Assembly: GCF_001570725.1 (NCBI RefSeq)
Contig: NZ_BCNV01000001.1
Location: 1 to 64,000 of the forward strand
Length of the DNA: 64,000 nt
Reading direction: 5' to 3'
From: Paenibacillus amylolyticus
GTDB lineage: Bacteria; Bacillota; Bacilli; Paenibacillales; Paenibacillaceae
Shown here: piece by piece, positions 58,861 to 64,000 of the stretch
Numbering within the stretch: the first letter of the stretch is position 1
How the letters are laid out: every line of letters starts with the position of its first letter
Position numbers and translations under genes: made by a program
The notes under the pieces: generated by a model
What the model saw: the letters and a program-made list of their open reading frames with translations, nothing else
Told to the model about the DNA's origin: nothing
Databases searched by the model: none

Positions 58861-59005
58861 TGGAATCATCTCCTTAGGGTGTGTGTTTGCTTTGAGAAAC
58901 CATTACACCCGAAGCAACGGATTGAATCGCAGTCACCGTTTTTACAGCTTTTCCTGTTTTCCCTATGTTATGATGAAGCTTGAATATGTAAGGGAGGGAT
59001 TTCAA

Positions 59006-59287
59006 GTGGACTGGTTCACACTGGGCAATATGATCACACGCATCCGTATCGGGCAAAAGGCGTCCACACCTGGGTTCTCCCGCACCGTCATCCGTCGTCC
59101 GGATGGGTTGTTTTGGGTAGGCGGGATATGGTCCGGGCAAGTTGTCCAGCTGCGGGATTTCCTTTTTTCCGATATATGGACCATCTATGATGATGAAGAA
59201 ACAGAGCAGTGGCTTGAATTCCGCAGTCAAGTTGAACAGAAGGAACGTGAAATGATAGAAAATCAGTTCGAAGATCTGCGTGATTGA
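59006..59287 (+). CDS. Hypothetical protein (93 aa)
   Basis: A 93-residue soluble protein starting at GTG 59006 (GGGAGGG 7 nt upstream). It has a compact alpha/beta pattern (VDWFTLGNMITRIRIGQKAS, GLFWVGGIWSGQVVQL) and a charged C-terminal helix (EQKEREMIENQFEDLRD). The open frame extends upstream with no ribosome site. The family is not recognised. Confidence 0.6.
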   Translation: MDWFTLGNMITRIRIGQKASTPGFSRTVIRRPDGLFWVGGIWSGQVVQLRDFLFSDIWTIYDDEETEQWLEFRSQVEQKEREMIENQFEDLRD

Positions 59288-59439
59288 TCGGATGACTTTA
59301 ACAATAAAATGGAAATAAAACTATAAATCGACTTAAATGTGAATTTCATTTTGTCTCAAGAAGGTGACGTGACAAACGGTGGCGAATGATAGATGAGAGA
59401 ATCTAAGATAGGGAAAATTAGAACTTTGAGGTGCTGTGA

Positions 59440-61338
59440 ATGAAAAATGTGCCCAAAGCTATCGTCATCTTATGGATGAGTGTATTGATTATTCTAGGTA
59501 TGCCGCACGGGATAGTCTTTGCAACTACAGGAGAGGTTCAGCAGCCTGTATCCATTGCAGGATGGGAAGTAAAATGGGGGAACGTTGACGATCAGGGGTT
59601 CATCAGTGAAGTTAAGGGAGCAGATGAGATATGGGAAAGACAGGGTGTCGATAAGTTAGAGTATAGCAATACAGATCGATCGAGTTCCTTATGGACTCGC
59701 CTGACCATCCCTGAATTGACTGAGGAAAGTTCAGCCATTCGATTTGAGAACATTAAAGGCAATCATATTGTGATCTATCTGGAGGACCGCAAGGTCTACG
59801 AGAACTACCATTACAATTATGATAATAATGCTGTCTTGCTGCCCTTATCCAGTGAGAATTCAGGTGACACGCTCTATGTATGGTCACAAAATGAGAAAGG
59901 CCGTCTGGGCATACAAGGTACCGTTCAGGTTGGACCGTATGCCGCTTTACAGGAGAAATATATTCATAACGGGCTTATTGATGTAATCTTGGGCGCAACG
60001 TTTGTCTTCACAGCGATTACGATGCTGAGTTGTACGTTTTTCCTGGGCAAATTCCACAAGGGATTATGGATCTCGCTATGCATCGTGATGGGTTCCATCG
60101 GCACGATGATCATCACGTACTCGCAATTTTTGTATACATTCTATCAAGTATATGGTGACCTGTATTCGGTAATATTTGATCTGGCGATGCTGCTGGGTAT
60201 GCCAGCGCTCTGTTATTTCTTTGAGCAGATTATCGGGCCAGGACTGCATGGAATCTTCACCAAACTACGAAAAATACAATTCATATATTCAGTTATCGCG
60301 GTATTCTCTCTATTTATCTATGTTACATCAGGCGGGCAATGGGAGTTCCTCTACAATCTGCTCGTACAGCGTGTAGTTGGCATGGTGCTGGTCATCCTGC
60401 TTACAATCCTCTTGGTGGGTACCATCGCCAAAGCGCTGCAACGAAACCGGGAAGCAATGCTGCTTGCGACAGGATTCGGTACATTTGCCTTGATCAGTGT
60501 GGCTGAATTGTTGTGGTACTATCAGCGGAGTGGTTCGTATCATCTGTTATGGTGGAAATGGTCAATGGTTGCATTTGTGATCTCGTTGATTGCCATTCTC
60601 GGTAGTCGTTTTGCTGAAAAACATACCAAAGTGTTAGAGTACTCCAAAGAACTGGAGTTGTTCAACAATGAGTTGCAGCGATCTGAAAAGATGGAGATTA
60701 TTAGCGAACTGGCTGCATCCGTTGCTCATGAGGTACGTAATCCGCTTCAGGTGACAAGAGGGTTCCTGCAACTCATGACAGAACAGGAAGACAACAAAAA
60801 TAAGGGGTATGTTCGAATTGCATTGGAGGAACTTGATCGGGCTTCCGGCATCATTACGGACTTTCTTACCTTTGCCAAACCTGAGTTTGACCATATTATC
60901 TCGCTCAATATCTCGGATGAATTCAATCATATCGAAGGTATTCTTGTACCGATGGCTAATCTCGAAGGTGGCAAAATCACCACCGACATCCCGCCAGATC
61001 TATATATTCGGGGCAATTCCTCGAAGTTCAAGCAGGCTTTTATCAATATTATCAAGAACAGTATTGAAGCTTTGCAGGGACAAGGCCAGATTGATATCTG
61101 GGCATATAAGCAGGATGGCATGATTAAGGTGCATGTCAGGGATAACGGAGAAGGAATGGACGAGGAAGCACTCTCCCGGTTGGGCGAGCCTTATTTCTCC
61201 AATAAAATCAAAGGCACAGGCCTGGGCATGATGGTGACTTTCCGCATTGTTGAAGCGATGCAAGGACAGATTAGCTTTACAAGCACCAAAGGGGTAGGAA
61301 CAGAAGCGGTTGTATCTTTCACCGAGTTCGTCGAATGA
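59440..61338 (+). CDS. 7TM sensor histidine kinase (7TMR-DISM type)
   Basis: A 632-residue kinase. The signal peptide is followed by an extracellular beta-rich domain (about 30-165). Seven transmembrane helices (about 180-395) follow, as in 7TMR-DISM receptors. A linker helix leads to a HisKA H-box ASVAHEVRNPLQVTRGFLQL (His about 429) and a HATPase with IKNSIEALQGQG (N box), DNGEGMDEE (G1) and GTGLGMMVTF (G2). The HEVRNP H-box is of the sporulation-kinase/HPK4 type, not the ComP/NarX type. There is no response regulator next to it. It converges on the peptide/prenyl-synthase unit and could sense its product; that is inference. GAGGTG lies 7 nt upstream of the ATG. Confidence 0.92.
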   Translation: MKNVPKAIVILWMSVLIILGMPHGIVFATTGEVQQPVSIAGWEVKWGNVDDQGFISEVKGADEIWERQGVDKLEYSNTDRSSSLWTRLTIPELTEESSAIRFENIKGNHIVIYLEDRKVYENYHYNYDNNAVLLPLSSENSGDTLYVWSQNEKGRLGIQGTVQVGPYAALQEKYIHNGLIDVILGATFVFTAITMLSCTFFLGKFHKGLWISLCIVMGSIGTMIITYSQFLYTFYQVYGDLYSVIFDLAMLLGMPALCYFFEQIIGPGLHGIFTKLRKIQFIYSVIAVFSLFIYVTSGGQWEFLYNLLVQRVVGMVLVILLTILLVGTIAKALQRNREAMLLATGFGTFALISVAELLWYYQRSGSYHLLWWKWSMVAFVISLIAILGSRFAEKHTKVLEYSKELELFNNELQRSEKMEIISELAASVAHEVRNPLQVTRGFLQLMTEQEDNKNKGYVRIALEELDRASGIITDFLTFAKPEFDHIISLNISDEFNHIEGILVPMANLEGGKITTDIPPDLYIRGNSSKFKQAFINIIKNSIEALQGQGQIDIWAYKQDGMIKVHVRDNGEGMDEEALSRLGEPYFSNKIKGTGLGMMVTFRIVEAMQGQISFTSTKGVGTEAVVSFTEFVE

Positions 61339-61346
61339 CGAACTCA
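61325..61346. terminator. Hairpin overlapping the kinase stop codon
   Basis: GAGTTCGTC-GAAT-GACGAACTC: perfect 9-bp stem with a 4-nt loop spanning the stop codon. There is no adjacent T-run in either direction, so terminator function is uncertain. Confidence 0.4.
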
Positions 61347-61412
61347 GAAGGATACAGCGGCTTTTTTGTTCCTACCCCTGATTTCTTACACTACAAGATT
61401 AGCTCGCCCGAC

Positions 61413-61655
61413 TTAACTTCTCCAAGGTCCGCAATTCACATCATAATTTACTTTGGAAGGGTTGGGAGGTATGACAAGAACATAGTCATTCTGCTGCTCC
61501 TCAACGGTACGTACCTGAATGTGCTCCGGGATTATGATACCGAAAGCTTCACGAAGCGCCTGCTTCGGATTGGAGTGCAATTGTTGTCTGAAGTGCTCAT
61601 CACTCCAAGCCTTTTCAATAATATCCTCATGCAACGTTTTCTCTGATACCATCAT
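61413..61655 (-). CDS. NHLP-leader peptide precursor (RiPP or ComX-like pheromone)
   Basis: An 80-residue precursor. The first ~63 residues form a nitrile-hydratase-like leader (NHLP): EKAWSDEHFRQQLHSNPKQA, LREAFGIIIPEHIQVRTVEE, then DYVLVIPPNP, the usual end of such leaders. The remaining core is short, SKVNYDVNCGPWRS, with one Cys and a Trp three residues from the end. NHLP leaders guide RiPP modification. A Trp near the C-terminus beside a ComQ-like synthase recalls ComX, whose Trp is prenylated. The start is ATG 61655 with GAAGGGAA 8 nt upstream; the distal ATG 61673 precedes that site. It is 54 nt downstream of the synthase gene. Confidence 0.82.
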   Translation of the reverse strand: MMVSEKTLHEDIIEKAWSDEHFRQQLHSNPKQALREAFGIIIPEHIQVRTVEEQQNDYVLVIPPNPSKVNYDVNCGPWRS

Positions 61656-61709
61656 CGTCAACATTCCCTTCATATTTAAAATTAAACTGAATCAGCTTCA
61701 TCCTTATGT

Positions 61710-62657
61710 TCAGGATTGCAACTGTTGCTCGCTGATCCAGTGATGAAACCCGCCTTGGAGGAGCCGTTTCTTCCGTTGTATAATGTCCTGAACAGCTTGT
61801 ACCAATGTGCTGCATAAGTAAGAATTAAACGCCTCAAGATGCGACATTCCTAAGTTAGACGATGTTAATGTACGATGATATTGATAAGCAATGTCTACGT
61901 AAGAGTTCATGAGTTGTGTATTATATACATTGTCATGTATACGTTCGCTAAGAGGATGAGCGGGATAGTTGTGATTCAGTGCTGCGGATATGTGGGAGAG
62001 GTAGCTGTTGTAGTTTCCATGCACAGCATCTTGTTGCGTGTCTGTGAAGTCATCGGTCATCTGGAGTGTCATGAGTGTGATGTTGATGCCAGAACACACC
62101 GGGATGATCCGGTCGGACTCTTTCAGCATAAGCATTGCACCTGTAGCTCCAATGAGCAGAGGGGCAGCCTTTTGCGCAATCAACAAGGGACTCTTTTGAA
62201 AATAATCAATGGATTGCTCACCCGTAACACTCACGGCCCAATCCACTACATATTGTCTGAAATAGATCCAGAACGCGGAGGAAGGATCGAATAATTCCGA
62301 GTAAGATTGAATTGCATCCATGTAATATAGATTACCCACGGATAATTTCCGTGTGGCATCCTCAGGTTGTTCATCCATCACGTCGTCCTGATTCAGAAAA
62401 TATAACATGTGAATGAGGCAGGCTGTGCTTAATTGGAGTGCTTTCTCTTGGGGTAGTTTGTCTGAGTGTTGCATCCAAAGTGGAATGATGTATCCGATGT
62501 AACTATGTCCCGAATCTCGTAACAGGGGATTAACTGAATGAAGTTGTTCTAATGCATATCCTGACAAGGGTTCGGGATATTTCCGTACGAGTTGTTCCGC
62601 TGAAGCAAACACGACCTCCAGATCGGATCTAAACGGATCTAACCATTCTCTCCGCAT
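61710..62657 (-). CDS. ComQ-like class I isoprenoid (polyprenyl) synthase
   Basis: A 315-residue all-helical protein with two Asp-rich motifs at the spacing of trans-prenyl synthases: DDVMD at 91-95 (in FLNQDDVMDEQPED) and DDFTD at 202-206 (in LQMTDDFTDTQQD). Ordinary prenyl-synthase substrate blocks (GGKRxRP) are missing, as in ComQ and in terpene synthases of this clan. With the precursor gene 54 bp downstream it probably prenylates the peptide or supplies an isoprenoid for it; an unrelated terpene product is the alternative. ATG 62657 has GGAAGGAC about 11 nt upstream. Repeat copy 4 lies just upstream. Confidence 0.8.
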   Translation of the reverse strand: MRREWLDPFRSDLEVVFASAEQLVRKYPEPLSGYALEQLHSVNPLLRDSGHSYIGYIIPLWMQHSDKLPQEKALQLSTACLIHMLYFLNQDDVMDEQPEDATRKLSVGNLYYMDAIQSYSELFDPSSAFWIYFRQYVVDWAVSVTGEQSIDYFQKSPLLIAQKAAPLLIGATGAMLMLKESDRIIPVCSGINITLMTLQMTDDFTDTQQDAVHGNYNSYLSHISAALNHNYPAHPLSERIHDNVYNTQLMNSYVDIAYQYHRTLTSSNLGMSHLEAFNSYLCSTLVQAVQDIIQRKKRLLQGGFHHWISEQQLQS

Positions 62658-62699
62658 TATTACATATCGTCCTTCCTGCGATAAGGTGATTCAGGACTG

Positions 62700-62891
62700 T
62701 TCAACTATATTAGTTGAAATAATCATTTACACGTATAACGGAGAGGACAGAAGAAACCTGAAAAAGCGAAGCGTTCGCCTTTATCACCGGATTTTCCCTT
62801 TAGGGAAATAATCAAAAAAATCTGGGGATAACAGCGATTGGAAGCTTGTTCTGTCAGCGTAGTGTCAGTGTAAATAATATGTAGTTCAACT
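62700..62891 (+). repeat. Dispersed palindromic repeat, copy 4
   Basis: About 192 bp including TTCAACT / AGTTCAAC ends, with inner ATTTACACG / GTGTAAATA. Core arms TTCGCCTTTATCACCGGATT and CTGGGGATAACAGCG match copies 1 and 3 closely. It lies between the divergent synthase and 63067 genes. The remaining gap to 63066 shows no gene. Confidence 0.86.
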
Positions 62892-63066
62892 GATATAGAT
62901 CATGAAGTTACACTCAGTATAGCGGAAATAAACTGAAAAAAATAGGATTTTTTGTGATCAATTGTGAGAAAAATGATGACTTTTTGTATTTTATGGCATA
63001 AAAAAGTGGATTTTAGGCTCAAACTAGGGAGGCACAGGATTTCGACATCGGAAAGGCGGAAGAAAA

Positions 63067-63804
63067 ATGAACATGAAATGGAAAACATGGATGGCAGCCG
63101 GATTGGCAGCCATAGTCATAACAGCAGGAACTGGGCATGTGGCATTTGCTGATCCAGCACTACGGGTTGAGGAACATAACGATGCATCTAGACCTTCTTC
63201 CTCCGGCAAACAAACGAAGCCATGCATGCAGGCAGGACACGGTTTATTTATGATCGGTGAAACGGCAGACTTGCTTGGTATCGGCCTGCGGGATCTGAAA
63301 GCACAGATGGAGCTGGGCAAGACGTTGTCCCAGATTGCCAAAGAGCGCAAGGGTCTTAGTGAGGAACAGTTATTGCAGAAGTTGAAGCCTACATTGGCGC
63401 AGCGTGTGGATCAAGCTGTAGAAGAAGGTTGTCTCACCAAGGAACAAGCAGCAGCCACGAAGGCGGACATGGATACCAAGTTGAAAAAGGTCATCAATAC
63501 CCCGCTTCGTGATTTGCGGCGTGAGTTTGCCCACCATGGCAAACGTTCCATGGTAGATAAGGGCGAAATCGCCCGTTTTATTGGAGTCACACCGGCTCAA
63601 CTGCACGAGCAGCTTCAGGGAGGGAAATCCCTGGCTGAGATTGCTCAGGCAAAAGGTATTAGCGAAACGCAGCTGGTGGACAAGCTGAAGGAACAATTGA
63701 CGGGTGATCTGAAGAGGTTTGTGAATCAGAAGGGCAATGGGCATCCAGCCCCAGGTCACCAAGAGCCTGTTCCCGGACGATCAACTTCAACCGAAGTAAA
63801 ATAA
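63067..63804 (+). CDS. Secreted protein with two helical repeats (DUF2680-like)
   Basis: A 245-residue protein with a signal peptide (about 1-29, cleavage near AFA-DP). Two tandem copies of a ~45-residue repeat follow: ADLLGIGLRDLKAQMELGKT with LSQIAKERKGLSEEQLLQKL (about 72-118), and ARFIGVTPAQLHEQLQGGKS with LAEIAQAKGISETQLVDKL (about 172-217). A helical spacer separates them. The repeats resemble those of secreted DUF2680/YckD-type proteins. The N-terminal mature part holds Cys-Met and His residues (PCMQAGHG). The function is unknown. GGCGGAAGAAAA precedes the ATG. Confidence 0.72.
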   Translation: MNMKWKTWMAAGLAAIVITAGTGHVAFADPALRVEEHNDASRPSSSGKQTKPCMQAGHGLFMIGETADLLGIGLRDLKAQMELGKTLSQIAKERKGLSEEQLLQKLKPTLAQRVDQAVEEGCLTKEQAAATKADMDTKLKKVINTPLRDLRREFAHHGKRSMVDKGEIARFIGVTPAQLHEQLQGGKSLAEIAQAKGISETQLVDKLKEQLTGDLKRFVNQKGNGHPAPGHQEPVPGRSTSTEVK

Positions 63805-63839
63805 AGAAGAGCGTCTCCACCAACGGGGACGCTCTTCTT
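63804..63839. terminator. Bidirectional intrinsic terminator
   Basis: AAGAAGAGCGTC / GACGCTCTTCTT perfect 12-bp stem with A/T runs on the left side. Confidence 0.9.
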
Positions 63840-63842
63840 GGT

Positions 63843-64000
63843 TCATAATGTCTCACTCGTTCCCGGACTACGAGTGTGGCCGGGTGACGGAGTTCGGTCA
63901 GGTGAATCTCTTTTGTCCGCAGCAGCAGATGGATGAGTACTTAAACGTGGTTTACGCATTAACCCTACCGTGAAGCGGGAGCCAGGAAGTTTGGATAATG
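63843..64000 (-). CDS. C-terminal end of a protein, possibly a sensor histidine kinase
   Basis: Read leftwards to TGA at 63843. The visible 52 residues begin LSKLPGSRFTVGLM, which resembles the last strand of a HATPase domain (GSxFTVxLP). A basic, Pro/Ser-rich tail follows (RTPSPGHTRSPGTSETL). The start is outside the window. The kinase identity is a guess from this short match. It shares the terminator at 63804. Confidence 0.45.
   Translation of the reverse strand, partial: LSKLPGSRFTVGLMRKPRLSTHPSAAADKRDSPDRTPSPGHTRSPGTSETL

Follow-up and report, generated by a model that had tools for sequence, protein, structure and literature searches.

What does an isoprenoid-synthase-like enzyme do when its gene lies beside that of a small peptide with an NHLP leader? 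This question is raised by a locus in the window, the 64,000-nucleotide stretch of DNA from the soil bacterium Paenibacillus amylolyticus. The synthase gene (61710-62657, minus strand) encodes a protein of 315 aa, and the precursor ORF follows on the same strand (61413-61673 at full length, 86 aa from the first ATG). An inner ATG at 61655 opens with MMVSEK and gives 80 aa (61413-61655, minus strand). Since an in-frame TGA precedes the inner ATG in five relatives (G030, G012, G027, G035 and G003), the longer start is ruled out in these five, and judging from the reading frames the inner ATG is the likely start of the window's precursor. With this start, the synthase and precursor genes are 54 bp apart, the spacing given in the original prediction for this locus. 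The pair described there as a two-gene leftward unit is real, but a third part was missed: a histidine kinase gene (59440-61338, plus strand; 632 aa) that is convergent with the precursor gene across a gap of 74 bp. We put at roughly three in four the probability that these genes form a palQ-palX-palP locus making a prenyl-Trp peptide that is read by PalP, with all four steps of the explanation set out below.

The motifs predicted for the synthase, DDVMD and DDFTD, were found in the 315-aa ORF as DDVMD (D91, D95) and QMTDDFTD (Q199, D202, D206), and these five residues were present in 104 of 104 aligned loci. In five example relatives without a two-residue N-terminal extension, the signature residues are D89 and Q197. 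According to a 2026 review (PMC13290415), of which we used part, Trp-prenylating members share a Gln before the second Asp-rich motif as their mark. Searches of Pfam and NCBIfam with the window synthase gave no family up to E 1, and 25 synthase members gave weak, scattered matches at most to curated family models. Its predicted structure (pLDDT 91.0, pTM 0.88) matched 4jyx_H with Z 23.5 and rmsd 3.1 over 276 aligned residues, and the best Foldseek E value was 2.1e-4; in the model, the fold is that of polyprenyl diphosphate synthases. Neither Ord1 nor ComQ chains were among the 50 fold-search matches listed, which excludes nothing. Fold and Asp-rich motifs would suit an enzyme that makes a terpene or prenyl diphosphate as a small molecule, with the NHLP gene belonging to a separate RiPP, but we regard this as very improbable given that the pair is kept in nearly all loci, that no curated synthase family was reached, that the Gln implicated in Trp recognition is invariant, and that the published relative PalQ prenylates its own precursor (PMC10853753).

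The NHLP leader proposed for the precursor was recovered by model TIGR03793 (E 6.9e-18; 64.3 bits, cut-off 50.9). The peptide ends in NCGPWRS, with a single Cys and with Trp third from the end, as had been predicted; the core YDVNCGPWR, with its last residue S, is encoded at 61416-61442 (minus strand; coordinates accurate to about one codon). The five near ORFs that were scanned include no genes for lanthionine, radical-SAM or azoline enzymes, and they also fit the predicted absence of an adjacent protease, transporter or cyclase. This supports the view that a RiPP-type leader is paired with an isoprenoid-synthase-type enzyme and that no other tailoring enzyme is adjacent.

The pairing is not the new class that it had been taken for, since PalQ and PalX of the PalQ-PalX-PalP system of Paenibacillus alvei were published by Miyata, Ito and Fujinami in 2023 (PMC10853753, used here in part). 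There, a histidine kinase, PalP, an NHLP precursor, PalX, and a prenyltransferase, PalQ, form a cluster. In vitro, PalQ adds C5, C10 or C15 to C3 of the C-terminal Trp of PalX with formation of a pyrroloindole, modified Trp only among the acceptors tested, and is aided by the PalX leader, which is not essential (PMC10853753). The chemistry put forward in the original prediction is probably right, and we propose four steps. First, as homology and the signature residues suggest, the NHLP leader of the window's PalX would dock on the PalQ-type enzyme, a prenyl diphosphate would donate a C5-C15 prenyl group to C3 of the indole in the single core Trp, and the pyrroloindole ring would close after prenylation, as for P. 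alvei PalQ in vitro. Second, the enzyme of the window's clade would accept the internal Trp in YDVNCGPWRS, like ComQ, or act after tail trimming. Third, a general protease would cut off the leader, no dedicated protease or transporter being linked. Fourth, and with less weight, the lipidated peptide would sit in the membrane and be sensed by PalP, a HisKA kinase of orphan type, through its 7TM part, which would make the cassette a pheromone-like signal system of Paenibacillales. Both the prenylation of the window's peptide and its sensing by the window's kinase are what we infer here.

The cassette is widespread and its parts are tightly linked. Synthase and precursor were found in the same 61 of 99 genomes of relatives, adjacent to each other and with the kinase alongside, next to the precursor, in 61/61 loci. 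A profile search found the synthase in 272/392 genomes of the order, which places palQXP among the more frequent RiPP-type loci of a large genus, whereas in the literature that we found the enzyme has been characterised from one species only. Across the class, the 26 genomes with a synthase among 299 sampled all belong to the window's own family. One plasmid record carried a relative (26% identity), no relative was confirmed on viral contigs, and the published P. alvei core occurred in none of 394 genomes of the family.

Further loci were collected from two sources. Dereplication of 141 loci (60 regions, L027 and 80 named loci) on the last 250 residues left 110 unique synthase loci, and 40 further loci were hand-picked among the places listed by the profile search, 8 of them repeating loci already among the 110. 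Synthases regularly found without the precursor would have spoken against the original prediction; instead, besides the 61 loci above, the trio was complete in 78 of the 80 named loci (the best 80 of 113) and present in all of the 40. In the two exceptions the trio is split on one contig: precursor and kinase lie ~33 kb from the synthase in P. alkaliterrae and 13-18 kb from it in P. nasutitermitis, which has one synthase and two precursor-kinase pairs. At L280, L282 and L283, from two species, genes that by eye resemble sugar uptake and metabolism genes part the synthase from the precursor-kinase pairs.

The kinase gene lay within the locus in 108/110 cases and beside the precursor in 105, including five loci (L193, L194, L195, L198 and L200) where the convergent reading frames overlap. 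It stands upstream of the synthase at L184, L186 and L187, and its frame is cut or broken at L027, L070 and L102. Two kinases flank the synthase-precursor pair at L147, L150, L152 and L155. Two tandem precursors occur at L156 and L175, and L261 has a second, weak NHLP-like frame without Trp. At L071 (6001-7239, G059), synthase and precursor share one open frame, through either a natural fusion or a sequencing frameshift; in the model of this fused protein the leader helices were confident and the core was unplaced (pLDDT 37-55).

A Trp is present within the last five residues of 110/110 precursors, supporting the view that the Trp of the C-terminal region is the likely prenylation target. Its distance from the end varies: it is the last residue in 54 precursors and is followed by one residue in 16, two in 36, three in 3 and four in 1, giving a tail in 56/110 loci. 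Two-residue tails (TP, GM, GN and GD) were also seen in other lineages among the further 40 loci. Since so many precursors carry residues after Trp, the family as a whole is unlikely to follow the strict C-terminal-Trp rule of PalQ. Appending Ala after Trp abolished all PalQ activity (PMC10853753), and therefore the window's enzyme cannot obey that rule on the full precursor.

The core YDVNCGPWR is identical in 39/39 loci of the window's clade, with synonymous changes at 7/9 codons and zero amino-acid changes, and the residue that follows it is S, D, T or N. Within the clade, synthases diverge by up to 49%, and ten synthase changes are fixed in it compared with the other loci, including N52S, C55G, N80C and W204F. 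One locus with the clade core, L123, comes from a record titled Paenibacillus polymyxa ISL-58; in this it is unlike other P. polymyxa-like genomes, and the label may be wrong.

If an exo- or endopeptidase first removed Arg and Ser, Trp would become C-terminal and the requirement of PalQ for such a Trp (PMC10853753) would hold after all; the free variation of the last residue and the different tail lengths elsewhere fit such trimming. We consider it unlikely, however, since the Arg after Trp is fixed in 39/39 loci despite being written with four synonymous codons, which indicates that it is under selection. The site equivalent to K39 of PalQ, which sometimes contacts the C-terminal carboxylate in simulations and is not well conserved (PMC10853753), also bears on this point. 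It is basic in 28/51 loci with C-terminal Trp and in 0/38 clade loci, which argues against trimming, yet it is basic in 11/14 loci with a one-residue tail too. Because the clade is a single lineage, its contrast at this site counts as one event.

Conservation of Trp and Cys had been named as a test of the original prediction; Trp passed it throughout, whereas Cys turned out to be a property of the clade. It is found in 39/39 precursors there and in the last 25 residues of 0/71 others, three residues before Trp in the clade core. Such fixation and spacing would suit a part for Cys in the chemistry, either by its own prenylation or by thiol attack on prenyl-Trp to give a Cys-Trp ring. This is hardly probable, since Trp was the only one of the tested acceptors that PalQ modified (PMC10853753) and ring closure can proceed through a backbone N, with no need of Cys. 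Direct prenylation of Trp as in the first step above, with the Trp internal, is the reading with which we continue.

The DNA around the genes contains several further elements. The end of palP and the palP-palX gap are spanned by a long inverted repeat of ~90 nt (61290-61379, no strand assigned), with arms at 61290-61305/61364-61379 (94%) and 61304-61320/61347-61363 (82%). It is likely a two-way terminator for palP and palX, and it was absent from the output of a consensus terminator scan. Upstream of the synthase lies a conserved palQX promoter region (62916-62967, minus strand) composed of the direct repeat TCACAA-N4-TCACAA (62952-62967, minus strand) and TATACT (62916-62921, minus strand), which was absent from the output of a sigma-70 consensus scan. 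The direct repeat precedes the synthase in 38/39 loci of the window's clade and is otherwise absent from the 1.4 Mb that the 110 loci make up; it is private to this clade. A regulon sharing the repeat was looked for and dropped, the sole exact site in the genome being that of palQX. Between the promoter region and the synthase start lies a MITE-like repeated insert of 189 bp (62708-62896, minus strand), which has at least 40 matches genome-wide at 80-100% identity and is missing at palQX in most aligned relatives. A palindrome near the start codon, considered as an operator, proved to be the end of this insert and is missing in most relatives. Rfam gave zero matches at gathering score in 59000-64000 of the window. 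Beside the cassette, an exported-looking protein is encoded at 63067-63804 (plus strand).

PalP consists of an extracytoplasmic part, a 7TMR-DISM-like membrane part, HisKA and HATPase_c; the window kinase carries HisKA (PF00512) and HATPase_c, and the 7TMR-DISM domain was matched by 10/24 kinases of relatives and not by the window protein itself. Its kinase domain resembles many HisKA kinases, with the model of the sporulation kinase KinD among the better matches, far below cut-off. No response regulator was found within the conserved trio or among the near ORFs examined. In P. polymyxa-like genomes palP lies at ~1.1-1.3 Mb, about where gene 1038 would presumably lie by gene density. Kin1038 of P. 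polymyxa E681 is reported to substitute in part for sporulation kinases of B. subtilis. That Kin1038 is PalP is a lead only, resting on gene number against position.

Does PalP read the peptide? Outside the window's clade, 66 loci contain 51 different eight-residue cores. We looked in 104 loci, those whose kinase fragments did not exceed 550 aa being left out here and in the rate work, for co-variation of core and kinase sensor beyond shared descent, and saw none. With the core, the extracytoplasmic part gave a partial rank correlation of 0.010 and the membrane part one of 0.083, compared with 0.255 for the synthase and 0.322 for the leader. Pherotype-like co-variation was dropped on these two sensor values.

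The genomes that have lost the peptide give a second view. Synthase and precursor are both missing in 10/60 sampled genomes of the genus, which form two separate lineages of eight and two genomes; one of these lineages nests within the window's clade. A full-length PalP is retained in each of the ten, scoring 729-1013 bits compared with 240 bits for the next best kinase. It occupies its usual site, between orthologues of the genes that flank the locus in the window; a relative of the 63067-63804 protein directly follows palP in 10/10, and no remnant of synthase or precursor was matched at the palP site up to E 1. Since PalP is kept in all ten with its catalytic motifs intact, it must be useful to some extent without the peptide. 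Both this retention and the lack of core-sensor co-variation count against peptide and kinase being a simple dedicated pair.

Were PalP the receptor of the peptide, the kinase would be expected to bear a mark of palQX loss. An effect on the membrane part was first seen in binned distances and then tested with branch lengths on a fixed tree, with the TM borders of PalP set by hand. The rate ratio of membrane to extracytoplasmic part was 1.06 and 1.01 in the two palQX-less lineages and 0.52-0.82 in 19 overlapping palQX-bearing subclades; the permutation p of 0.043 is post hoc, because this ratio was chosen after earlier rate results. The ratio of membrane to kinase part was 4.26 without palQX and 2.35 with it (borderline, p 0.053), a palQX-bearing group of 14 P. 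polymyxa-like genomes coming near the former value with 4.08, and the ratio of extracytoplasmic to kinase part showed no clear contrast (p 0.27). Conserved membrane sites had changed at 9/22 positions in the eight-genome lineage and at none in the two-genome one, compared with 1/20, 2/24 and 3/24 in palQX-bearing controls and 11/30 in a deep Cohnella-like group. We take this as a hint, post hoc, that PalP detects the lipidated peptide inside the membrane.

The peptide might instead be an antimicrobial or other effector, with PalP merely regulating it or sensing something else in an old synteny. The persistence of palP without palQX between kept flanks, the core and sensor that do not co-vary, and the many different cores, which suggest fast diversification, would all fit, and prenylated peptides can be antimicrobial (PMC13290415). 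On the other side, we noted no gene for a transporter or for immunity next to the trio, the precursor remains with the kinase where the synthase is split away, and the membrane part of PalP changes faster after loss of palQX. A non-signalling role is thus a real possibility, though one that we doubt. Continuing with the signalling reading, we suggest tentatively, at somewhat less than even odds, that palQXP serves as a lipopeptide pheromone system throughout Paenibacillales. The 7TM part of PalP would read the prenyl-Trp peptide inside the membrane and pass the signal to the pathway of an orphan kinase, which may be the sporulation phosphorelay; lineages without palQX would keep the receptor while its membrane part drifts, and the window's clade would hold a frozen private variant with internal Trp and Cys.

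New here are a clearly marked variant, the wide distribution of the cassette, its third gene and a first, weak test of the role of PalP; in the main texts of open-licence literature we found no description of the YDVNCGPWR variant or of the role of PalP. The clade breaks the C-terminal-Trp rule, and its enzyme would therefore broaden the tools for PalQ-type peptide lipidation. Should PalP be the receptor, Paenibacillus would possess an equivalent of ComX signalling of its own, with a leader and a kinase unrelated to those of the ComX system.

How does the locus compare with known systems? ComQXPA is defined by a ComP-type kinase and an adjacent ComA-type response regulator, and ComP belongs to another kinase group than HisKA. 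This hallmark is lacking from the conserved trio: the window kinase is of HisKA type, unlike ComP, and no response regulator lies among the near ORFs looked at. The precursor, unlike ComX, has an NHLP leader. The likeness to ComQ-ComX-ComP-ComA of Bacillus lies in an isoprenoid-synthase-fold Trp prenyltransferase, a small precursor and a sensor kinase nearby, and ComQ acts on an internal Trp (PMC10853753, PMC13290415), as the Trp of the window core is. The second Asp-rich motif of the window synthase is absent from ComQ as the part of the P. alvei paper used here describes it (PMC10853753). "ComQ-like", the term of the original prediction, thus fits the fold and the chemistry but not the membership. 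ChrPC, in its P domain, Ord1 and other trans-IDS-like Trp prenyltransferases share the Gln before the second Asp-rich motif; compared by description, ChrPC carries a fused cyclase domain and the substrate of Ord1 is free Trp (PMC13290415).

The closest likeness is to PalQ-PalX-PalP, with the same three kinds of genes, an NHLP precursor beside the synthase, both Asp-rich motifs, the same signature residues, a conserved Trp near the precursor end and a kinase in the cluster, to which the part of the P. alvei paper used here gives no role (PMC10853753). The D89 and Q197 numbering of PalQ is shared by the five relatives mentioned above, a likeness of anatomy and numbering and not of alignment with PalQ (K4ZRG6). 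Unlike P. alvei PalX, the window's precursor has an internal Trp, a fixed YDVNCGPWR core and a Cys, and it carries two residues after Trp, whereas P. alvei PalQ rejects C-terminal extensions. Therefore, we conclude that the window locus is a variant of the PalQ/PalX/PalP type that lies outside the substrate class of PalQ, because its Trp is third from the end.
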